Below are positions 174 to 44,432 of a stretch of 64,000 bases of DNA, piece by piece. The position numbers were made by a program, and so were the translations under genes. The notes beneath the pieces are model-generated. The model did not search any database. It saw nothing but the letters and a program-made list of their open reading frames with translations, and was not told the origin of the DNA. This stretch comes from Mycolicibacterium confluentis (lineage in GTDB: Bacteria > Actinomycetota > Actinomycetes > Mycobacteriales > Mycobacteriaceae): contig NZ_AP022612.1 in NCBI RefSeq assembly GCF_010729895.1, forward strand, positions 3,410,001 to 3,474,000. The letters are read 5' to 3'. The stretch's first letter is position 1. Every line of letters begins with the position of its first letter.

Positions 174-953
174 ATGAGCGGTCAACTGCAAGACGCGGCC
201 GGGTTGCGGATCCTGGTGGTCGGCGCGTCGTCCGGAATCGGCCACGCCGTCGCCACGAGCGCGGCCGAACGCGGCGCCAAGGTCGCGGTCGCGGCGCGCC
301 GGATGGAACTGTTGACTCAACTGGCGAAGTCGATCGACGGCACGGCCTTCGAACTCGACGTCGAGGACCTCAAAGCCATCGAACGGGTGGTCGGCGAGGC
401 GGCGAGCGCTCTGGGTGGCCTGGACGCGGTGGTGTTCACCAGCACCGTGGTGCCGTTCGCCTACATCGAAGACACCGACGTCGCCACCTGGCTGCATGCC
501 TTCGCGGTCAACACGATCGGCGCCAACAACGTGCTGCGCGCCGCGCTGCCGCACCTGTCGGAGAACGGCGTCGCGCTGATCACCTCCAGTCGTGATGTCG
601 GCCGTCCCCGCGCCGGCGTCGCGGCCTACGACGCCAGCAAGGCCGCACTCGACGAGATCCTGCACTCGTGGCGCAGTGAGCATCCCGAACTGTCGGTCAT
701 CCGCGTCGGCATGGGACCCACCGAGGACACCGAGATCCTCCGAGGGGCGGACCGCGACCTGCTCGAAGAGCTGTTCAAGTCGTGGGTCGAGCATGGTCAG
801 CTGCCCGCGCAGATGTCCGCACTGCGCGACGTCGCCGAAACCCTGGTCTCGCTGGTGACCACCGCGTACGCCAATCCGAGCGTGGTGCCGGAGATCGTGC
901 AGTTGGCACCGCGCATCCGGCCACGCACGAAGAATGCCGCCGACCAGCAGTGA
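174..953 (+). CDS. SDR family NAD(P)-dependent oxidoreductase
   Basis: Classical short-chain dehydrogenase of 259 residues, a normal length for the family. The dinucleotide-binding glycine motif GASSGIG lies at residues 17-23, the active-site serine region LITSS near 135-139 and the catalytic Tyr152/Lys156 pair in YDASK. These residues support NAD(P)-dependent oxidation or reduction of a hydroxyl/keto substrate, but the substrate cannot be read from sequence. The ATG at 174 is preceded by a GAAGG-like ribosome site about 11 bases upstream. A long reading frame on the opposite strand is an antisense shadow. The gene stands alone; the next gene is a separate secreted protein. Confidence 0.9.
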   Translation: MSGQLQDAAGLRILVVGASSGIGHAVATSAAERGAKVAVAARRMELLTQLAKSIDGTAFELDVEDLKAIERVVGEAASALGGLDAVVFTSTVVPFAYIEDTDVATWLHAFAVNTIGANNVLRAALPHLSENGVALITSSRDVGRPRAGVAAYDASKAALDEILHSWRSEHPELSVIRVGMGPTEDTEILRGADRDLLEELFKSWVEHGQLPAQMSALRDVAETLVSLVTTAYANPSVVPEIVQLAPRIRPRTKNAADQQ

Positions 954-1061
954 CCACACCGGTCACTGTGTCGCATGTGGCAGATTACGATTCCTGTGAA
1001 TTCGCTGCGCAAAACTGACGCGGCCGACTACCGTTCTGCTTTCGACCAGAGAGGGTTCTCC

Positions 1062-30726: not shown

Positions 30727-31094
30727 GGGGCTGAACGGTTTCGACTTCGCGCATCGAATCAAGGGAAGCGTGCCGGTGCAGGCAAGAGACCACCGTAAGC
30801 GTCGTTGCAACCAATTAAGCGCCGATACCAATCAGCGCGACTACGCCCTCGCTGCCTAAGCGATAGCTAGTCCGTCAGCCCGGGAGCGCCCTCGACCCGG
30901 ATCCTGGCGTCATCAAGAGGGACAAACCCATACGTCCGGTCGCGGGATGTACGGGGACACCAAACAGCGACTGGGATCGTCATCCTGACTTGTTCGCGTG
31001 ATCAGGAGATCCGAGTAGAGACATAGCGGACTGCGCACGGAGAAGCCTCGAGGGAATGCCGTAGGACCCGGGTTCGATTCCCGGCAGCTCCACC
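30727..31094 (+). ncRNA. ssrA: Transfer-messenger RNA (tmRNA)
   Basis: A 368-base tmRNA. The 5' end GGGGCTGAACGGTTTCGACT pairs (GGGGCTG with CAGCTCC) with the tRNA-like 3' end that carries GGGTTCGATTCCCG. The tag frame at 30821-30859 encodes ADTNQRDYALAA and then TAA, close to the ADSHQRDYALAA tag I recall for M. tuberculosis. It rescues stalled ribosomes with SmpB, whose gene is in this window at 47.6-48.1 kb. Its 3' end is a common integration site; integrase debris lies downstream. Confidence 0.97.
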
Positions 31095-36147: not shown

Positions 36148-36286
36148 CCGCGCCCCTGGATTGACAGCGCCGGTCCAGGCCCCGCCAGAGAGGCGGACAG
36201 TGATTCCACAGATCAAGCGGGCCATGCGGATGGCCTTCGTCCGATGCCGCGCTGGCGGACCCGCCCGCGCATCAACCTGCGCGGCA

Positions 36287-36349
36287 GGCGCCGTGGCCGC
36301 AGGCAGGCTCGCCGCGCAGGGCGCGTCGGTCATCCTGGTGGCACGCCGA
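36287..36349 (+). pseudogene. Possible fragment of an SDR nucleotide-binding site
   Basis: One frame reads GAVAAGRLAAQGASVILVAR, which resembles the first helix and second strand of an SDR Rossmann fold. No flanking SDR sequence survives on either side. It may be a gene relic or coincidence in a 240-base gap between TetR and the phosphotransferase-like gene; I see nothing else in that gap. Confidence 0.25.
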
Positions 36350-36388
36350 GTCCGGGTTGGTGGCGGTGCGGGCCAGGCCGTCACCCAC

Positions 36389-37261
36389 CTAATCCTGGAC
36401 CGCCTTGGCGATCGCGACGAACCGGGTCAATGCCGCACCGTCTGCGGCTGCGCCCCTGGCCAATTCGCGCGTCGCCTCATGGACCACACGCACGATCACC
36501 CATGCCCGGGCACGGTCCTCATCGAAACCCGCGGCGTCGGCCAGCGCCCAGAACCGCGCCCGAACACCGTCGCGGATATGACCCGCAAGATCGTCCCAGC
36601 GGTGCCAGAGCATCGGCGCGATCTCGGCGTGCGGATCGCCGTTGAGGGGCCGAGGCGAGATGCTCAGCCACGGTTGGCGATCGGAGGCCAACACCGTGCC
36701 GTAATGCAGATAGCCATGCAGCACCCGCTCGGAATCGACGCGCTCCCCAGCCAATTCGCGTCCCAGTGCGCTCGCCTGCTCGACAAGGCGGCGCGGGATC
36801 GGCGCGCTGCGAGGCAGTGCCCCGAAGTCGCGCACCCAGTCCTGGACCTGGGACCCCAGTGGGCTCAGCTGCGGCATGGCCGGTACGTGCAGGCGTCGGT
36901 ACAGATCGGCGATCACACCGCAGGCCTCGACGTCGGGCACCGCCGCAAGGCTGCGCGCCTGCAGGCGTTCGAGCAGCAGCGCGCGCCGACGTGGGTCGGC
37001 CCGCAGCAGACGCGCCGCGCCGTCACCAGCCCACCGCCGAAGCACAAGGTGCTCCTGACTGTCCGGCGCATCGGGCCCGCCGACCTTGAGCACGGCCGGC
37101 AGGGAAGCCGACGTGCGCACCGGCACCACGAGGGAACGGGAACCGTGGATGGCTGGGCCGTCGGGGCGAAGATCCCACTGCTCCATGAGGCTGTCCACGA
37201 CAGCGCCGACCACGTCACCCACGTGTTTCACCGTAGGGGCCCGGGGGTACAGGCCAACCAC
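36389..37261 (-). CDS. APH(6)-like protein with degenerate kinase motifs
   Basis: 290 residues aligned by eye to the streptomycin 6-kinase (APH_6_hur) family: the trailing PRPLNGDPHAEIAPMLWHRW is the family hallmark. The catalytic loop normally reads HGDLHYxN; here it is HGYLHYGT (Tyr184 for Asp, Thr189 for Asn). The metal-binding DP(K)P motif reads ISPRP (Ser202 for Asp). All three residues needed for phosphotransfer are therefore altered. It may be a pseudokinase that binds a ligand, or a gene that has lost its function but keeps its frame. GTG start at 37261; a later GTG (37231) is possible. Confidence 0.8.
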   Translation of the reverse strand: MVGLYPRAPTVKHVGDVVGAVVDSLMEQWDLRPDGPAIHGSRSLVVPVRTSASLPAVLKVGGPDAPDSQEHLVLRRWAGDGAARLLRADPRRRALLLERLQARSLAAVPDVEACGVIADLYRRLHVPAMPQLSPLGSQVQDWVRDFGALPRSAPIPRRLVEQASALGRELAGERVDSERVLHGYLHYGTVLASDRQPWLSISPRPLNGDPHAEIAPMLWHRWDDLAGHIRDGVRARFWALADAAGFDEDRARAWVIVRVVHEATRELARGAAADGAALTRFVAIAKAVQD

Positions 37262-37307
37262 GCTGCGTCAAGATCAGCGCTCCCATGACCTGGAAGGCGA
37301 CCCCCCC

Positions 37308-37412
37308 ATGATCCCCTTCATCTGCCCCACGTGCGGTCAGTTCGACCTCGAGTCGCCCGCGTGCGCTTCCTGCGCCACTGACGACGGTGGCCGCACATCC
37401 GACCTCCGGTAA
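37308..37412 (+). CDS. Tiny zinc-ribbon protein
   Basis: 34 residues, MIPFICPTCGQFDLESPACA then SCATDDGG. Two CxxC pairs (CPTC and CASC, with an extra Cys in ATDD context) form a plausible zinc ribbon. GGAAGG lies about 12 bases before the ATG. It is too short for ordinary gene finders; the support is the paired cysteines and the ribosome site. It is divergent from the APH-like gene. Confidence 0.4.
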   Translation: MIPFICPTCGQFDLESPACASCATDDGGRTSDLR

Positions 37413-37494
37413 CGGCTGTCAAACACGCTCGTGAACCTTCCGGTTGCAGCCGTTCGCACTCCGTTGGCGCAGACGTGAATGAAATAATGGCCCC

Positions 37495-38163
37495 ATGCCC
37501 GACCCGTCATCCGCTCCGGACGCCGAGACCGACGCGTTGGCCCAGGCCGCCGGGGATCTGAGTGTCGGCAGCTTCCGGTTCTGGTTCCTGAGCCAGCGCT
37601 GGGAATGGTCCGATCGGGTGGCACGCATGCATGGCTACGAGCCCGGAACCGTGACCCCCACCACCGAACTGCTGCTGTCACACAAGCATCCGGAGGACCG
37701 GCAGCACGTTCAGGAGCTTCTCGACAAGGCGCTGCACTCGGGCGGGTCGTTCTCCAGCCGACATAGGTTCATCGACACCGCGGGGCAGGAACACGCCGTC
37801 CTCGTGCTCGCCGACCGCATGGTCGACGATCGCGGCGCGGTGGTGGGCACCGAGGGTTACTACGTCGACCTGACCCCGACCGTCGACCAGGCCCGGCGGG
37901 ACGCACTCGAGACGTTGCCGGGCATGTTCAGGTCCCGCGCGGCTATCGAGCAGGCCAAGGGCATGCTGATGCTGGTCTACCGGATCGGCGCCGACCAGGC
38001 CTTCGAACTGCTCCAGTGGCGGTCGCAGCACACCAACACCAAGCTCCGGACGCTCGCGACCCAGGTGGTGGCCGCGGCGAGCGCCGAGGATCTCGGCTCG
38101 GACGCACTGCGCCGCCGGTTCGACCACCTGCTGCTCACCGCACACACCCGCACTAACGGGTGA
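37495..38163 (+). CDS. PAS-ANTAR regulator
   Basis: A 222-residue protein. A PAS domain covers about residues 20-130 (RVARMHGYEPGTVTPTTELL, HKHPEDRQHVQELLD, then DRMVDDRGAVVGTEGYYVDL). An ANTAR domain covers about 143-198 (SRAAIEQAKGMLMLVYRIGA, then DQAFELLQWRS). ANTAR domains bind RNA hairpins and cause antitermination; the PAS would provide the signal. It lies 71 bases upstream of a STAS gene on the same strand and probably belongs to the partner-switch locus. Confidence 0.9.
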   Translation: MPDPSSAPDAETDALAQAAGDLSVGSFRFWFLSQRWEWSDRVARMHGYEPGTVTPTTELLLSHKHPEDRQHVQELLDKALHSGGSFSSRHRFIDTAGQEHAVLVLADRMVDDRGAVVGTEGYYVDLTPTVDQARRDALETLPGMFRSRAAIEQAKGMLMLVYRIGADQAFELLQWRSQHTNTKLRTLATQVVAAASAEDLGSDALRRRFDHLLLTAHTRTNG

Positions 38164-38234
38164 CCATTTCGGGTACATACTGATCGCAATGATCGATTTC
38201 CAGTGACGGATCGAGGGCGGACAGGTTCACGGCG

Positions 38235-38597
38235 GTGGGGCAACTGGACATACGGCAGGACGTCCACGACGGGGCGATCGTCGTGTCGGCCGAGGGTGAA
38301 GTCGACTCCGGCAACGTGGGTGAACTGGCCGCACATCTCGACGAGGCGCGCGGCGCCGCCGCGACGTCGCAGCGCAGGCTTCTCGTCATCGAGTTGGACC
38401 GCGTGAAGTACTTCGGCAGTGCAGGGCTCAGCGCGGTGCTGGACTGCCATGAGCGGGGCGGCGTTGAGGGGGTCACGGTGCGGCTCGCGGCAAGCAACAC
38501 CGAGGTGCTGCGCCCGATCGAGGTGACCAAGCTCGACGAGGTGCTCCACCTCTACGACACGGTTGCCGCGGCCACCCACGACGACGGCCGAGACTAG
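38235..38597 (+). CDS. STAS-domain anti-sigma factor antagonist
   Basis: A 120-residue STAS protein. RVKYFGSAGLSAVLDCHERG holds the usual phosphorylatable Ser in GSAGL. In partner-switch systems the unphosphorylated form binds an RsbW-type kinase and frees a sigma factor. GTG start at 38235. The next gene begins immediately at 38598, with no gap, and encodes both a kinase and a phosphatase that could act on this protein. Confidence 0.9.
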   Translation: MGQLDIRQDVHDGAIVVSAEGEVDSGNVGELAAHLDEARGAAATSQRRLLVIELDRVKYFGSAGLSAVLDCHERGGVEGVTVRLAASNTEVLRPIEVTKLDEVLHLYDTVAAATHDDGRD

Positions 38598-41500
38598 ATG
38601 AGCGCCCGCGATCCCGACCGCTCACCGTCATCGAGGGTGTTCGCCGACGGCGGTGAGGTTGGCCGGGATCTCGGGCAGGTGGACTGGGACGCGACGCCAC
38701 TGGGGCCACCGCAGCAGTGGCCGCAGAGCCTGCAGGCGGCGGTCGGAATTCTGCTGTCGTCACGGTTCCCGATGTGGATGGCCTGGGGGCCAGATCTGAC
38801 GTTCTTCTGCAACGACGGCTACCGGCGCGCCACCCTGGGAGAAAAGTACCCGTGGGCGCTGGGCAGGCCCGCGCGGGACGTGTGGGCCGAGATCTGGGAT
38901 GACATCGGATGGCGGGTGCATCAGGTGCTGGACACCGGTCAGGCGACCTGGGACACCGCGCTGCTGCTGTTGCTGAAACGCTCGGGATACATCGAGGAGA
39001 CCTACCACACCTTTTCCTACAGTCCGCTGCGCGACGACGACGGCCGGGTCGTCGGAATGCTGTGCGTGGTCAGCGAGGACACCGACCGGGTGATCGGCGA
39101 GCGGCGGATGTCGACGCTGCGCGACTTGGGCTCGGACCTGAGTGTCGTCCGCAATGAAGAGGAGATCCTGGCCTTCTCCGACCGCCAGCTGAGCCAGAAC
39201 CTGCGCGACCTGCCGTTCACGCTGACATATCTCTTCGACGACGACGGCAACGCCCGACTGGCCGGCACCAGCGGCGTCCCCGCGGGCCATGCCGCGGCGC
39301 CCGACCGTCTGGAAGCCGGGGACGACACCCTGTGGCCAGTGCGACCGCCGGCGCACGGCGAAACCGTCCTGGTCGACCTCGACGAGCACCGGTTGCCCGA
39401 CCTGCCGACTGGCGCCTGGCCGGATCCTCCCACGCACGCCCTCGTGGTCCCGCTGCAGCAGCAGGGCGGTTCACCGTCCGGATTCCTGGTGGCCACACTC
39501 AACCGCTATCGCCGGCTCGACGACGCCTACCGCGGCTTCGTCGCGCTGGTGGCCTCGCACGTGGCCACCGGTCTCGGCCTCGCGCGCAGCTATCAACTGC
39601 AGCAGCGGCGGGCCGAGGAACTGACCGAACTTGACCGGGCCAAGACGACGTTCTTCTCGAACATCAGCCACGAGTTCCGCACCCCCCTGACGCTGATCCT
39701 TGACCCCGTCGACGCACTCCGGCAGTCCCCGGACCTCACGCCTGAGGCACGTCAGGAGCTGGACGTCGTGTGGCGCAACGGCTTACGGCTGGCAAAGCTG
39801 GTGAACTCGCTGCTCGATTTCTCACGAATCGAGGCCGGCCGGGGCCAGGCCGCCTACCACCCAGTCGACATCGGCACGGTCACCGCCGATTTGGCGAGTG
39901 TGTTCCGCTCCGCGGTCGATCGCGCCGGGCTGAGTTTCGAGGTGGACTGCCCGCCGCTGGACATGCCCGTGCACCTCGACCTCGACATGTGGGAGAAGGT
40001 GATCTTCAATCTGCTGTCGAACGCACTGAAGTTCACCTGCGAGGGCAGCATCGCCGTCACGGCACGTCGCGACGGGGACGCCGCGGTGATTGAGGTGGCG
40101 GACACCGGGATCGGGGTTCCGGAAGCCGAGCAGTCCCGGCTGTTCGAGCGGTTCTATCGGATCGAGAACGTGTACGCGCGCTCCAACGAGGGCAGCGGGA
40201 TCGGTCTGGCCCTGGTCAAGGAACTCGTCGGCCTGCACGGTGGGACGATCGACGCCGTCAGTGCCGAGAACGAGGGCACGACCTTCACGATCCGTGTGCC
40301 GTTCGGCACCGCCCACCTGCCTGCCGCGGCGGTCGCAGCCGGTTCCGCCCCGCGCACCAGCGGCGACGGCGCACAACCGTACATCGAAGAGGTGTTGCGC
40401 TGGCTGCCCAGCGGATCCGAACCCGACAACAGCGCCGCCCCCGGAACCGACACCTCCCCGGCGCAGGAGAAAGCGCCGCAGACCCGCATCCTCGTCGCCG
40501 ACGACAACGCCGACATGCGCGAGTACCTCGCGCGCCTGCTGCGCAGCGACGGCTATCGCGTCGACACCGCGGTCGACGGCCGCGAGGCCTTGGAAGCGGT
40601 CCGTGCCGACGTACCCCATCTGCTGATCAGTGACGTGATGATGCCACGCATGGACGGGCTGGCGCTGGTCAGTGCACTGCGGGCGGACCGGCGGACGGCG
40701 TTGGTGCCCGTTCTTCTGCTGTCCGCACGGGCCGGCCAGGAGGAATCGATCACCGGCCTCGCGGCCGGAGCCGACGACTACCTGGTTAAACCATTCACCG
40801 CGGCCGAACTGCTGGCCAGGGCCCGGGCCATCGTCCACCTGGCCCGCCTGCGCGACCACCAGTCGCGTTGGCGCGCAGCCCTGGTGGACTCCCTGCAGGA
40901 GGCGTTCTTCCTCTGCGATGAACACGGGTCGGTGATCGAGATCAACGCTGCGTTCACCGAGATCCTCGGATACGACGCGAGCGGACTGCCCTATGAGCAG
41001 CGGCATCCGTGGTGGCCTTCCGAGGGGTCCGACCCCGACGCCAACCGCCAGAGCGAAGAGGCGTTCCGAACCCTCCTGGAACAGCCGCACGGCATCCTCT
41101 CCGCGGTCCCCGTCATTCATCGCGACGGGCACCGGATGTGGGTCACCGCAACGTTCAACCACGCCGACGATCCCGACACCGGCAGGCGCGTCACCATCGG
41201 AACGCTGCGCGACGTCACGGCCGACCACTACCAGGCCCAGCGCGAGACCGCACTGGCGGCGCTCAGCGAACAACTCGCACAAGCGGAGACGTTGGACGGC
41301 GCTGTACTGGCCGTCGCAGAAGGCCTGCAGCGCGTCTACAACTCCGACCGCGTTCTGGCGGTCACATTGCCCGGGAGAGACGACGTGGACGCGGCGCCCT
41401 CATTGTTCTCGGTGGGCGATTCCGCCGAATGGGCCGATCTCGCTCAGTCCACGCGTGCGACCCTGACGCGGTTGTCGCACGGGGACCTGCTGGTGGCCGA

Positions 41501-42758
41501 CACCAGTGACGCCGGCACGGCCGGCATCGCACTGCAGCATCCGCGCGGGGTTCTGGTCATCTACGTCGAACTTCGCGAGCGGAGGGCGTTCACCCCCGAA
41601 GAGCGCACGCTGCTGACCGTTCTGGCGGGTCGCCTCGGCCAGGGACTGCAGCGGGTTCATCTGCTCGACCAGCAGCGCGAGACCGCACTGGCACTGCAGC
41701 ACGCGATCCTCGGGCCTGCGGTCTCAAGCGGGTTCGCGGTCCGCTACCAGCCCGCCAGCCGGCCGCTGCAGGTCGGCGGCGACTGGTACGACGTGGTCAA
41801 CCTCGATGACGGCCGGATCGGACTCGTCGTCGGCGACTGTGTCGGACACGGCTTGTCGGCCGCCACAGTGATGGGCCAACTGCGCAGCGCCTGTCGCGCA
41901 CTGCTGCTCGAACATCTCAGTCCCGCAGCGGCATTGGCCGGTTTGGACCGGTTCGCGATGCATCTGCCCGGCGCCCGTTGCACCACCGTCTTCTGCGGGG
42001 TGCTCGACCCGGAGTCCGGCGAACTGGTCTACTCCTGCGCCGGTCACCCACCGCCGATCCTGGTCCATGCCGACCTGTCCACCGAACTGTTGGAGGACGC
42101 CCGCGCGATACCGCTGGGACTGCCCCAACACCGAGCGCGCCCCGAGGCCCGTGTGACCATTCGACCGCGCGCGACTCTGGTTCTCTACACCGATGGCCTG
42201 GTGGAACGCCGGCGTGAATCGCTCGACGACGGCATCGCGCGGGCGGTCGATGTGGTGCAGGACAATCGCTCCGTCGTGCTGGACGGGCTGGCCAAGCAGC
42301 TGATGGCGAATCTGGCCCCCCACAGTGGTTACCAGGACGACGTCGCGCTGCTGCTGTATCGACAACCGGCCCCCTTGGAGTTGGAATTCGCCTCTGACGC
42401 AGCACAACTCGCGGGCGTGCGGACCGCCCTCCGCGGCTGGCTGCAGCGGGCCGGCGTGGGCAGGGACCAGGCTCTCGACGTCCTGATCGCCACCGGCGAG
42501 GCCATTGCGAATGCGATCGAGCACGGCCATCGCGACACCCCGGGCACGGTGTGCCTGCGCGCGACCGCCTGGGCTGATCGATTGAAGCTCACAGTGATCG
42601 ACACCGGGAGGTGGGTGAAACCGCAACCCGCCCCCGCCACCGCCGTCACGTCGTTCCGCGGTCGCGGAATCAGCTTGATGCGCGCGTTGATGCAGGACAT
42701 CGACATTGAACCGGATCACACCGGCACCACCGTCCATCTGAATGCGAGGATCGCCTGA
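38598..42758 (+). CDS. Giant hybrid: PAS-GAF-HK-REC-PAS-GAF-SpoIIE phosphatase-RsbW kinase
   Basis: 1386 residues with eight domains in order. PAS about 45-165; GAF about 175-330; HisKA with H358 in SNISHEFRTPL; HATPase with N471/N475, G1 ADTGIGVP and G2 GSGIGLAL; a receiver with D635/D636, phospho-acceptor D679 and K731; PAS 755-875; GAF 885-1020; PP2C/SpoIIE phosphatase (GDWYD 1061-1065, GDCVGHG, YTDG 1197-1200, GYQDD 1244-1248); and a C-terminal RsbW-type kinase (E1301, N1305, GRGISLM). It therefore holds a two-component phosphorelay and both enzymes of a sigma partner switch in one polypeptide. It has no transmembrane segments, so it is a cytoplasmic sensor. It abuts a STAS gene and overlaps another by 1 base. 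Confidence 0.93.
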   Translation: MSARDPDRSPSSRVFADGGEVGRDLGQVDWDATPLGPPQQWPQSLQAAVGILLSSRFPMWMAWGPDLTFFCNDGYRRATLGEKYPWALGRPARDVWAEIWDDIGWRVHQVLDTGQATWDTALLLLLKRSGYIEETYHTFSYSPLRDDDGRVVGMLCVVSEDTDRVIGERRMSTLRDLGSDLSVVRNEEEILAFSDRQLSQNLRDLPFTLTYLFDDDGNARLAGTSGVPAGHAAAPDRLEAGDDTLWPVRPPAHGETVLVDLDEHRLPDLPTGAWPDPPTHALVVPLQQQGGSPSGFLVATLNRYRRLDDAYRGFVALVASHVATGLGLARSYQLQQRRAEELTELDRAKTTFFSNISHEFRTPLTLILDPVDALRQSPDLTPEARQELDVVWRNGLRLAKLVNSLLDFSRIEAGRGQAAYHPVDIGTVTADLASVFRSAVDRAGLSFEVDCPPLDMPVHLDLDMWEKVIFNLLSNALKFTCEGSIAVTARRDGDAAVIEVADTGIGVPEAEQSRLFERFYRIENVYARSNEGSGIGLALVKELVGLHGGTIDAVSAENEGTTFTIRVPFGTAHLPAAAVAAGSAPRTSGDGAQPYIEEVLRWLPSGSEPDNSAAPGTDTSPAQEKAPQTRILVADDNADMREYLARLLRSDGYRVDTAVDGREALEAVRADVPHLLISDVMMPRMDGLALVSALRADRRTALVPVLLLSARAGQEESITGLAAGADDYLVKPFTAAELLARARAIVHLARLRDHQSRWRAALVDSLQEAFFLCDEHGSVIEINAAFTEILGYDASGLPYEQRHPWWPSEGSDPDANRQSEEAFRTLLEQPHGILSAVPVIHRDGHRMWVTATFNHADDPDTGRRVTIGTLRDVTADHYQAQRETALAALSEQLAQAETLDGAVLAVAEGLQRVYNSDRVLAVTLPGRDDVDAAPSLFSVGDSAEWADLAQSTRATLTRLSHGDLLVADTSDAGTAGIALQHPRGVLVIYVELRERRAFTPEERTLLTVLAGRLGQGLQRVHLLDQQRETALALQHAILGPAVSSGFAVRYQPASRPLQVGGDWYDVVNLDDGRIGLVVGDCVGHGLSAATVMGQLRSACRALLLEHLSPAAALAGLDRFAMHLPGARCTTVFCGVLDPESGELVYSCAGHPPPILVHADLSTELLEDARAIPLGLPQHRARPEARVTIRPRATLVLYTDGLVERRRESLDDGIARAVDVVQDNRSVVLDGLAKQLMANLAPHSGYQDDVALLLYRQPAPLELEFASDAAQLAGVRTALRGWLQRAGVGRDQALDVLIATGEAIANAIEHGHRDTPGTVCLRATAWADRLKLTVIDTGRWVKPQPAPATAVTSFRGRGISLMRALMQDIDIEPDHTGTTVHLNARIA

Positions 42759-43066
42759 TGGCCACCCCGCTGGACCTGCGCAACCGTCGTCTGCCGGACG
42801 GCACTCCAGTCTTGGCGGCCGTGGGCGAATTGGATCTCAGCAACATCGCCGCCTTCTCTGCGGCCGTCACGGAGACGCGCGCGTCGGCCCCGAAGGGGAC
42901 TCGGGTCACCCTCGACCTCAGCGAGGTCTCCTATCTCGACAGCGGCGCCATCAACGTGCTGTTCGACCACGTCGACGGCGTCGACATCGTGGCGCACCCG
43001 GATCTGATGGCCGTGTTGAAGATCAGCGGGCTCAGCGACGTCGGGTCCGTTCGCTCCGCGCCGTGA
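42758..43066 (+). CDS. STAS-domain anti-sigma factor antagonist, second copy
   Basis: A 102-residue STAS protein. SEVSYLDSGAINVLFDHVDG contains the phosphorylatable Ser in DSGA. The ATG shares one base with the stop of the giant hybrid (TGATG), so it is translationally coupled and is probably its direct substrate. It differs clearly from the STAS protein at 38.2 kb (GSAG against DSGA), suggesting two outputs. Confidence 0.9.
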   Translation: MATPLDLRNRRLPDGTPVLAAVGELDLSNIAAFSAAVTETRASAPKGTRVTLDLSEVSYLDSGAINVLFDHVDGVDIVAHPDLMAVLKISGLSDVGSVRSAP

Positions 43067-43072
43067 CGTCAG

Positions 43073-44041
43073 TCAGTCCGGGGCACCTGACTCGGCGCGA
43101 CGTGCCCTGGCCCGGCGCTTCCCTTCATGCATGGCGGCGACCCGTGCGACCGGGATGGTGCGGCCCTGCTCGATCAGGTCGGTGGGCAGTCGCTGCGCCG
43201 ACGGCATCGCCTCCGTCCACGACTCGCGTGCGTCGGCGAGGCCTACAGCGGTGTGCACCGTGAAGTCGCCCGGCTGGATCCGGCCCAGGTCCGACCACGC
43301 CACTGGAAACGACACCGGCAGGCCCGGTCGCCAGCGTGGACTGTACGCGGCGACGACCGTCGCGCCACCGGACCGCGTGGAGTCGACGAAGACCCGACCG
43401 CCGCGGTCATCGACGATGAACGCGGTGGTGGCGATGTCGGGATCGAGGGCCTCGGCCCGCGCCGCGATCGCCCGTGTCGCCGCCGCCACGTCATCGACGG
43501 GCGCGGAATCGTCGATCGGCACGAACACGTGCAGGCCCCGCGATCCGCTGGTCTTGACCGCACCCTGCAGGCCACAGTCGTCGAGCACGCGTCGCACCAG
43601 GTGGGCCACCGCGACGACCGCCGGGAAATCGTCGGCCGTGGGCGGATCGAGATCGATGATCAGGTGCGTTGGCCGGTAGATGTCCTCGGCCAGTCCCAAC
43701 GCCGGGTGGTACTCGATGGCCCGCTGATTGGCCAACCACAGCAGCGTGCGGCGATCGTTGCACAGCGCGTACCGGATCTCGCGGTGCGAGGCCTCCGCCC
43801 AGACCGGGACCGTCGCCACCCACTCGGGGGTGTACTTCGGCACGTTCTTCTGCATGAACGCTTCTCGGCCCCGCAGCACCCGCAACACCGTCAGGGGCCG
43901 GTGCGCCAGGCCGGGCAGCATCCTGTCCGCGATGGCGTCGAGATAGTCGATCAGGTCGCGCTTGGTCGCCCCGGCGTCCGGTCCGAGTTGCTGGTCGAGG
44001 TTGGTCAACTCGACACCGGCGCGCTGCTCCCCGCCGCTCAT
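43073..44041 (-). CDS. polD1: LigD-type polymerase (archaeo-eukaryotic primase fold), PolD1-like
   Basis: A 322-residue stand-alone polymerase domain related to that of LigD. The two metal-binding aspartates are D130 and D132 in LIIDLDPP, the nucleotide-binding motif is SGSRGLHVFV (S165-H171), and the third acidic residue is D220 in VFVDSTRSGGA. It belongs to the mycobacterial PolD enzymes that add nucleotides or ribonucleotides during gap filling and NHEJ-like repair. No ligase or nuclease domain is fused. It converges on the STAS gene with 6 bases between. Whether it is PolD1 or PolD2 rests on synteny I recall, not on a search. Confidence 0.85.
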   Translation of the reverse strand: MSGGEQRAGVELTNLDQQLGPDAGATKRDLIDYLDAIADRMLPGLAHRPLTVLRVLRGREAFMQKNVPKYTPEWVATVPVWAEASHREIRYALCNDRRTLLWLANQRAIEYHPALGLAEDIYRPTHLIIDLDPPTADDFPAVVAVAHLVRRVLDDCGLQGAVKTSGSRGLHVFVPIDDSAPVDDVAAATRAIAARAEALDPDIATTAFIVDDRGGRVFVDSTRSGGATVVAAYSPRWRPGLPVSFPVAWSDLGRIQPGDFTVHTAVGLADARESWTEAMPSAQRLPTDLIEQGRTIPVARVAAMHEGKRRARARRAESGAPD

Positions 44042-44159
44042 GTCCCCACCCTACGACCCCATGCGAAGCCACGTCTTCAGCGACCGGAATCCGTGCCGAC
44101 ACCGCTCAATTGACGCCTACGTCGCGCATTTCCTGCGACCATCGTCTAGGCTCCCGGCC

Positions 44160-44432
44160 ATGATCACCCGGCCCGCCCTGCTGCTCTGCGCGTCCGCGAT
44201 TGCGTTGGCATGCACCGGATGTGGCACTTCGCATGACCGGCACTCCTACGACATCGGTCGCGGTGTCAGCGCGGATGCGCACCGCATCGCCCAGAATTCA
44301 GGCTCGGCCGACATGACCGAATCCTGCCGTGAGGCGGTGCGGGCACGGTTCTCCAGCGAGCTGATGTTCCGCGATTCGCCTGCCGGGATCGACATGCCGT
44401 CGGCGATCGCCGGGTGTGTCGACGCCGGCTGA
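44160..44432 (+). CDS. Small secreted protein or lipoprotein
   Basis: 90 residues with a hydrophobic N-terminus (ALLLCASAIALACTGCGTS) that looks like a lipoprotein signal, although the residues before each Cys are not a perfect lipobox. The mature part has two further cysteines (ESCREAV and AGCVDAG), possibly a disulphide. It resembles small DUF732-like mycobacterial secreted proteins. No function is known. Confidence 0.65.
   Translation: MITRPALLLCASAIALACTGCGTSHDRHSYDIGRGVSADAHRIAQNSGSADMTESCREAVRARFSSELMFRDSPAGIDMPSAIAGCVDAG

Follow-up and report, generated by a model that had tools for sequence, protein, structure and literature searches.

The window analysed here is a stretch of 64,000 nucleotides (positions 1–64,000 below) from Mycolicibacterium confluentis, taken from positions 3,410,001–3,474,000 on the forward strand of contig NZ_AP022612.1 in assembly GCF_010729895.1. 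Between positions 37495 and 43066 it carries four consecutive plus-strand genes, which encode a PAS-ANTAR protein, a STAS protein (STAS1), a very large signalling protein (the hybrid) and a second STAS protein (STAS2). The original prediction, made from the letters of the window alone, had placed these genes on one strand with gaps of 71, 0 and -1 bases, and a check of the open reading frames (ORFs) confirmed every position and gap, the hybrid stop being overlapped by STAS2 by 1 base. The operon is composed of two units, a core formed by the hybrid and STAS2, and a mycobacterial module of PAS-ANTAR and STAS1 which was later added upstream in one branch. The hybrid is provisionally identified, with moderate confidence, as a one-protein partner-switch controller acting on STAS2, to which the ANTAR-STAS1 module has been added in that branch.

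Among actinobacteria the core pair is ancient and widely distributed. STAS2 lies directly downstream of the hybrid in 74 of 76 loci, corresponding to 68 of 70 distinct loci as six repeat another (45 of 46 distinct mycobacterial loci and 23 of 24 from other genera), and directly 3' of it in each of 60 mycobacterial loci from a later set, in which L311 duplicates L153. The exceptions are L062, where STAS2 is reduced to a 14-residue start before a stop, and L151 from Kitasatospora, which has no adjacent STAS2 and an RsbW domain scoring just 28 bits. Of 38 loci where the junction was measured, 37 have the two genes overlapping by 1 or 4 bases, and the remaining one is the frameshifted L086; Ser62 is present in STAS2 in 39 of 39 rows. 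Gene decay is visible at L086 and L087, where the hybrid is split by a frameshift, and in the STAS2 remnant of L062.

Among 148 genomes sampled from the genus, 63 encode the hybrid at 62% identity or more, 59 of them almost in full and four as truncated copies, a count that omits shorter pieces at 66–67% in G076 and G134. In a sample of 297 genomes from the genus, 121 encode it at 59% or more, four partial ones included. Relatives sharing 53–67% identity occur in other families of the order, together with weaker ones at 43–46%, and records from Streptomyces, Actinacidiphila, Amycolatopsis, Saccharothrix, Actinokineospora and Paractinoplanes reach 55–63%; the closest other protein, from Mycobacterium sp. 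ACS4331, is 87–88% identical. In the databases these relatives are named SpoIIE family protein phosphatase, histidine kinase, response regulator or PAS domain S-box protein, and the fusion order histidine kinase-receiver-PAS-GAF-SpoIIE is retained across genera. The controller had been described as uncommon in the original prediction, a description which this distribution does not bear out.

Table. Features of the four-gene operon (window positions) and domains of the hybrid (residue numbers)
Feature	Position	Strand	Evidence
Extended -10-like element TGAAATAAT	37480–37488	+	Ends 6 nucleotides before the PAS-ANTAR ATG
PAS-ANTAR protein, 222 residues	37495–38163	+	PF08447 46.9 bits and PF03861 64.3 bits, both above cut-off
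STAS1, 120 residues, GTG start, Ser62	38235–38597	+	PF01740 55.9 bits
Hybrid controller, 1386 residues	38598–42758	+	Pfam domains, conserved residues, AlphaFold2 models
STAS2, 102 residues, Ser62	42758–43066	+	PF13466 30.8 bits and PF01740 28.9 bits, both above cut-off
Hybrid, N-terminal region, read as PAS-like	residues 1–170		No Pfam match above cut-off
Hybrid, GAF_2	residues 187–324		Pfam
Hybrid, HisKA with H358	residues 348–414		Pfam
Hybrid, HATPase_c	residues 466–569		Pfam
Hybrid, Response_reg (receiver, REC) with D679	residues 631–742		Pfam
Hybrid, PAS (PAS_4/PAS_9)	residues 763–875		Pfam
Hybrid, second GAF (GAF_3)	residues about 944–1019		Pfam 24.8 bits, below its cut-off
Hybrid, SpoIIE	residues 1070–1255		PF07228 159.6 bits
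Hybrid, RsbW-type HATPase_c_2 with E1301 and N1305	residues 1264–1381		Pfam

STAS1 and ANTAR are absent from most hybrid loci. A search for the four-gene order, the check that had been proposed with the original prediction, found it kept in 20 of the 148 genus genomes (20 of the 63 carriers), with PAS-ANTAR and STAS1 upstream of the hybrid, the order verified by profile in all 20 and STAS2 downstream in each; one more genome (G041, locus L052) has a contig that ends after STAS1. Both genes are likewise present in 15 of the 60 hybrid loci fetched later. In a quick tree of the hybrids the four-gene loci fall in a single mycobacterial branch, where they are interspersed with four two-gene loci, a pattern requiring at least four changes, for example one gain and three losses, and the ANTAR proteins of the four-gene loci form one group of modest support (bootstrap 84; 33 in the Shimodaira–Hasegawa-like approximate likelihood ratio test, SH-aLRT).

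The ANTAR-STAS1 pair is also found beside other phosphatase genes. A different hybrid of ~1280 residues (type B), about 40–45% identical where aligned, is encoded at 25 loci in 24 of the 148 genomes at E ≤ 1e-250. ANTAR and STAS1 both precede it at 22 of these loci, the exceptions being L223, L245 and L246, and the ANTAR gene of L235 is broken by a split over two frames. The type-B loci comprise L098–L100, L102–L107, L218, L219 and L222–L246; in those of the M. gordonae type (L105, L219 and L245) STAS1 is divergent and ANTAR is absent. Twenty further ANTAR loci comprise three with ANTAR-STAS1 before shorter SpoIIE-RsbW genes (L278, L289 and L291), nine with an ANTAR-STAS1 pair and no phosphatase/kinase match in the fetched stretch (L277, L280, L282, L284, L286–L288, L290 and L292) and eight with ANTAR lacking STAS1 (L279, L281, L283, L285 and L293–L296). 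Several of the phosphatase-free pairs lie near genes read from their sequences as thiC-like and as a large P-type ATPase. In the ANTAR tree most of the phosphatase-free pairs are placed within the type-B and short-phosphatase rows, with two (G095 and G042) branching outside these, so that the pair seems to persist after its phosphatase is lost. The ANTAR-STAS1 link looks more stable than the link of STAS1 to the hybrid, as the pair is found with different hybrids, with short phosphatases or with none. Type B occurs in 0 of the 20 four-gene genomes vs 24 of the 148 genomes, which is no more than suggestive of the two excluding each other (p 0.022, relatedness ignored).

STAS1 scores 60.4 bits against the anti-sigma-antagonist model TIGR00377 (cut-off 53.45), keeps Ser62 in 12 of 12 rows, resembles the SigF antagonist RsfB (8ih8, E 3.6e-7) and also matches 4qtp (E 1.2e-9), a chain named anti-sigma factor antagonist. 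The two STAS outputs proposed earlier for the hybrid, each with Ser62, are not equivalent: STAS2 is near-invariant beside the hybrid while STAS1 follows ANTAR.

The hybrid has the order PAS-like/GAF/HisKA/HATPase/REC/PAS/GAF/SpoIIE/RsbW. As aligned in 39 rows (the window hybrid and 38 mycobacterial orthologues, the frameshifted L086 and L087 being excluded and row L088 being just 42–44% identical), H358, N475, D502, G504, G506, D679 and K731 are unchanged throughout, so are D1062, D1065, D1080, D1199 and D1248 of the SpoIIE phosphatase, which are taken here to be metal ligands, and so are E1301, N1305, D1335, G1337, R1354 and G1355 of the RsbW-type domain, where the glutamate of the N box (E1301) is presumably catalytic. 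D635 and D1247 are kept in 38 of 39 rows and the glutamine of the GYQDD motif in 21 of 39. The hybrid is thereby a hybrid histidine kinase, as its HisKA, HATPase and receiver domains have all kept their H, N, G and D residues; it also has the acidic residues of the SpoIIE/RsbU PP2C fold, and the N box Glu and Asn with the G1 and G2 boxes of RsbW/SpoIIAB-type kinases. All four enzyme or receiver units look active, as their catalytic residues are conserved, and the kinase and receiver (H358, D679), SpoIIE phosphatase and RsbW-type kinase (E1301, N1305) named beforehand are confirmed as to both residues and domains. The term phosphorelay, also used beforehand, fails in its strict sense. No HPt domain is present among the 14 Pfam families matching the hybrid at E ≤ 0.1 (HPt was not searched for elsewhere in the genome), and the chain therefore carries a direct His-Asp step before the phosphatase/kinase pair.

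AlphaFold2 models of residues 19–600 and 620–1386 have mean predicted local distance difference test (pLDDT) values of 82.9 and 81.1, respectively, while the predicted template modelling score of 0.44 for the latter leaves the placement of its domains unsure. Residues 1–170 are read as PAS-like from the modelled order of two strands, helices and three strands. By fold, the N-terminal half is similar to WalK, phytochrome and HK853-type kinases, whereas the top PDB match of the C-terminal half is Rv1364c RsbU-RsbW, followed by the receiver-phosphatase RssB. Modelled helices at 735–766, 874–895 and 1000–1038 (the end of the last falling below pLDDT 50) connect REC, PAS, GAF and SpoIIE, and such long inter-domain helices appear in keeping with the model of linker-controlled phosphatases in PMC12143880.

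Shorter paralogues from mycobacteria (type A; L090–L097 and L207) of 831–1117 residues have GAF-SpoIIE-RsbW behind a different N-terminus with no kinase or receiver match, and a STAS2-like gene follows them in 9 of 9 loci. In a quick SpoIIE-RsbW tree, in which row L211 (the second SpoIIE gene at its locus) is disregarded, type A is one group (SH-aLRT 98) within a set of mycobacterial and some Amycolatopsis-type hybrids (95) and joins the mycobacterial hybrids (91), its exact place among them being unresolved. An origin of the hybrid by fusion of a type-A gene with a type-B gene was considered and rejected: the full hybrid spans several actinobacterial families and type A is nested inside the hybrids, so that type A derives from the full hybrid. 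As type A groups with the mycobacterial hybrids, the probable origin of these paralogues is that the half carrying kinase and receiver was replaced or lost.

From these features a scheme can be inferred in which the signal, every biochemical step, the direction of the receiver effect, the sigma target and any STAS1-ANTAR link are predictions. A signal at the N-terminal PAS/GAF region would set the autophosphorylation of H358, and the phosphate would go directly from H358 to the receiver aspartate D679 within one protein or dimer. The state of the receiver would be transmitted through the long helices, PAS and GAF to the SpoIIE (PP2C) phosphatase and the RsbW-type kinase, which are predicted to act oppositely on Ser62 of the co-translated STAS2. 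Unphosphorylated STAS2 would then capture an anti-sigma factor, freeing a sigma factor of the SigF/SigB type, while STAS1 would probably serve this phosphatase and kinase as a further substrate and have the ANTAR protein as output or co-regulator. According to PMC10950880, phosphorylation of the receiver-PP2C protein RsfR by RsfS in M. smegmatis lowers its phosphatase activity towards RsfB, but phosphorylation of the receiver-PP2C protein RsbY in B. cereus raises its activity, so the sign of the receiver effect in the hybrid is not predictable.

By analogy, SigF is the likeliest sigma target. Elsewhere in the genome a SigF-like gene stands next to an RsbW-like gene (L111; the sigma gene named by reading its sequence). 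The genome has in total three SpoIIE genes and ten STAS matches, as well as an RsbW2-like gene between two STAS genes (L109; also named by reading). Receiver-PP2C, CHASE3-like kinase and single-receiver genes at L108 (genome positions 2494379–2497604) are RsfR/RsfS-like on the same basis; they lie far from the RsbW2/STAS cluster of L109, unlike the M. smegmatis arrangement as described in PMC7693655.

Upstream regions were scored with a SigF matrix whose consensus comes from PMC7693655 and whose weights were set in this analysis. In the first set of 44 non-redundant regions the median score is 9.4 vs 4.1 on the reverse strand, with 0 of 500 column-permuted matrices as good. In the second set of 38 regions it is 7.4 vs 4.3 (p 0.009; of 1000 permuted matrices, 54 score as well and 1 is as strand-biased), and in 36 strictly new regions unlike the first set 8.0 vs 4.3 (p 0.009; 11 of 1000 as good and 0 of 1000 as strand-biased). 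Type-A operons reach a median of 10.1 (n = 9), while no SigF-like signal is found upstream of type B (n = 18; median 4.05 vs 8.9 on the reverse strand) or of lone or paired ANTAR genes (n = 13; 4.2 vs 6.6). The best plus-strand site of the 64 kb (TGTTT-16-GGGTAC; 37224–37250) begins 271 bp upstream of the operon. Good matches start 58–145 bp before the hybrid in the two-gene loci L061, L065, L081, L315, L324 and L348, and the enrichment may thus belong to a subset of two-gene operons; some of the best scores of four-gene loci are the extended -10-like element itself. The promoter result is not used as support for SigF control of the operons.

The extended -10-like element precedes the PAS-ANTAR start codon so closely that a leaderless start is suggested. 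Upstream of four-gene loci, TGNNANNAT, a pattern chosen after viewing the rows, lies within 12 nucleotides of the start in 34 of 37 distinct regions (exceptions L069, L266 and L308) and occurs in 0 of 37 in their distal part. The element (TGAAATAAT in the window, TGNNANNAT as a pattern) is a likely leaderless promoter and may travel with the ANTAR gene. Some type-B loci also show sequence similar to TGNNANNAT. Between the upstream gene and the operon, positions 37308–37412 may encode a 34-residue peptide with a CPxCG...CxxC pattern, and elsewhere in the window a tmRNA gene with the tag ADTNQRDYALAA is located at 30727–31094.

The control of transcript termination by the ANTAR protein, as predicted earlier, finds no support in the window. 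The protein contains an ANTAR domain (PF03861, above its cut-off of 27.3 bits); dual-hexaloop RNA targets in the 64 kb amount to one plus-strand match and zero minus-strand matches, with a plus-strand control mean of 2.0 and none by the operon, and Rfam gives no match at gathering score in 36200–44200, its one sub-threshold match lying inside the hybrid gene. No receiver domain was found in the PAS-ANTAR protein by Pfam, and the kinase therefore cannot address it by the usual phosphotransfer; proteins with receiver and ANTAR domains, such as Rv1626, do exist. PAS-ANTAR aligns over both its PAS and ANTAR domains to 6hmj (E 6.6e-22), which is PAL of Nakamurella multipartita according to PMC7496416. 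If the ANTAR protein is wired to the hybrid, STAS1 is a plausible link, as the gene neighbourhood suggests.

Several observations weigh against the hybrid as a controller that acts through STAS2 on a SigF-type factor. STAS2 is a divergent, short STAS protein that passes the Pfam STAS cut-offs but scores just 34.4 on TIGR00377, below the cut-off given above, and the place of STAS1 as a substrate is suggested by gene order only. No sigma factor was recognised, by eye and not by Pfam, among the 11 neighbour clusters recurring in at least 5 of 50 loci, although this clustering is loose and caught STAS2 in just 22 loci; the earlier statement that the operon itself has no sigma factor gene is correct. 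The SigF-like promoter signal is weaker in the later loci than in the first set, and the 88% relative does not share the SigF-like site of the window, its sequence further than about 60 bp upstream being unrelated.

Other assignments of the two STAS proteins have to be weighed with these points. STAS1 and PAS-ANTAR may form a switch of their own, in which STAS1, in phosphorylated or unphosphorylated form, binds and controls the ANTAR protein and the phosphatase/kinase would thereby drive an RNA-binding output independent of a sigma factor; the pair stays together with the window-type hybrid, type B, shorter SpoIIE-RsbW genes or no phosphatase/kinase at all, and seems in the ANTAR tree to outlive its phosphatase, but adjacency is what the proposal rests on, ANTAR lacks STAS1 in 8 of the 20 further loci and no RNA target was found in the window; it is considered rather unlikely. 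A combined arrangement, where the phosphorylation state of STAS1 is determined by the phosphatase/kinase of the hybrid and STAS1 in turn switches the PAS-ANTAR antiterminator, giving a sigma output through STAS2 and a termination output through STAS1-ANTAR, is considered unlikely. STAS1 and STAS2 could instead be redundant antagonists of one anti-sigma factor, the ANTAR gene merely sharing their transcript, as would suit the resemblance of STAS1 to RsfB (8ih8) and 4qtp and its score above the TIGR00377 cut-off; this equally unlikely possibility has against it that STAS1 tracks ANTAR, and not the hybrid, in the loci compared.

The workings of the hybrid itself could also differ from the scheme above. 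Its RsbW domain is complete and might be the anti-sigma factor, as in Bacillus RsbW, with STAS2 freeing the sigma factor directly from the hybrid. Rv1364c is reported in PMC10950880 to bind SigF in vitro, yet the same paper describes the M. smegmatis RsbW that phosphorylates RsfB as not binding SigF, which a separate RsbW1 does, and this role for the hybrid is quite improbable. Least probable is a receiver that does not act in cis, with H358 and D679 using separate partners and the second PAS/GAF pair alone controlling the phosphatase: type-A paralogues do retain GAF-SpoIIE-RsbW with no kinase or receiver match, but the HK-REC-PAS-GAF-SpoIIE order is kept across genera, and H358 and D679 in every mycobacterial row. 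The one-protein controller acting on STAS2 is the interpretation carried forward here.

According to PMC8115616, at least one unknown route of SigF control must exist in mycobacteria, and M. vaccae (draft genome) lacks both the stressosome (RsbRST) and the RsbK routes; RsfS/RsfR have since filled part of this gap in M. smegmatis (PMC10950880). The hybrid is a concrete candidate for a further route, because a family member is encoded by Mycolicibacterium vaccae (record P0038, 69% identity), the hybrid occurs in 121 of 297 genomes and a STAS partner is present at nearly every locus. As kinase, receiver, phosphatase, opposing kinase and substrate are contained in the two proteins of overlapping genes, reconstituting the entire signalling step in vitro would take just two purified proteins. 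Through the ANTAR-STAS1 module it also becomes possible to test whether partner switching has an output independent of sigma factors; if it does, the pair, which in mycobacteria accompanies three kinds of phosphatase gene or stands without one, would constitute a portable module for such an output.

To our knowledge, RssB/RsbU-type proteins have neither a kinase nor an RsbW domain in the chain. They resemble the hybrid in that a receiver (or sensor) is joined to the phosphatase by helical linkers (PMC12143880). Rv1364c of M. tuberculosis (PAS-PP2C-RsbW-STAS) shares with the hybrid a PP2C domain followed by an RsbW-type kinase in one chain and is its best PDB match by sequence (residues 1043–1385, E 6.6e-47) as well as by fold, which makes the earlier comparison with this protein apt; in Rv1364c, however, the STAS domain is fused and just a PAS domain stands in front (PMC10950880), whereas in the window STAS2 is a separate gene and a kinase-receiver part precedes the phosphatase.

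The RsfS/RsfR/RsbW2/RsfB system of M. smegmatis has the same flow, from a histidine kinase to a receiver-PP2C and a STAS protein opposed by an RsbW kinase, and PMC10950880 reports SigF control there, with RsbW2 phosphorylating RsfB and unphosphorylated RsfB countering the anti-SigF protein RsbW1. Those parts are separate proteins, whereas HK, REC, PP2C and RsbW of the window form one chain. In RsbK/RsbY of Bacillus cereus, a hybrid kinase likewise feeds a PP2C acting on a STAS antagonist, with SigB as the target (PMC10950880), but the system consists of two proteins and not one. RsbK homologues were reported from some rapid growers and no RsbY from mycobacteria (PMC8115616), and where RsbK occurs in mycobacteria rsbM adjoins rsbK, whereas STAS2 adjoins the window hybrid. 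PAS-ANTAR resembles PAL (6hmj) in its aligned PAS and ANTAR domains, but ends soon after ANTAR (222 vs 373 residues). The remainder of PAL is a light-sensing LOV domain. No published description of the hybrid or the operon was recognised in a literature search that covered subscription papers sparsely, and a 2011 article by de Been, which by its title is said to concern complex hybrid histidine kinases in sigma-B modules, may describe relatives. The parts and the logic are known, and what looks new is their union in a single chain with a conserved, separate STAS partner, together with the ANTAR-STAS1 addition.

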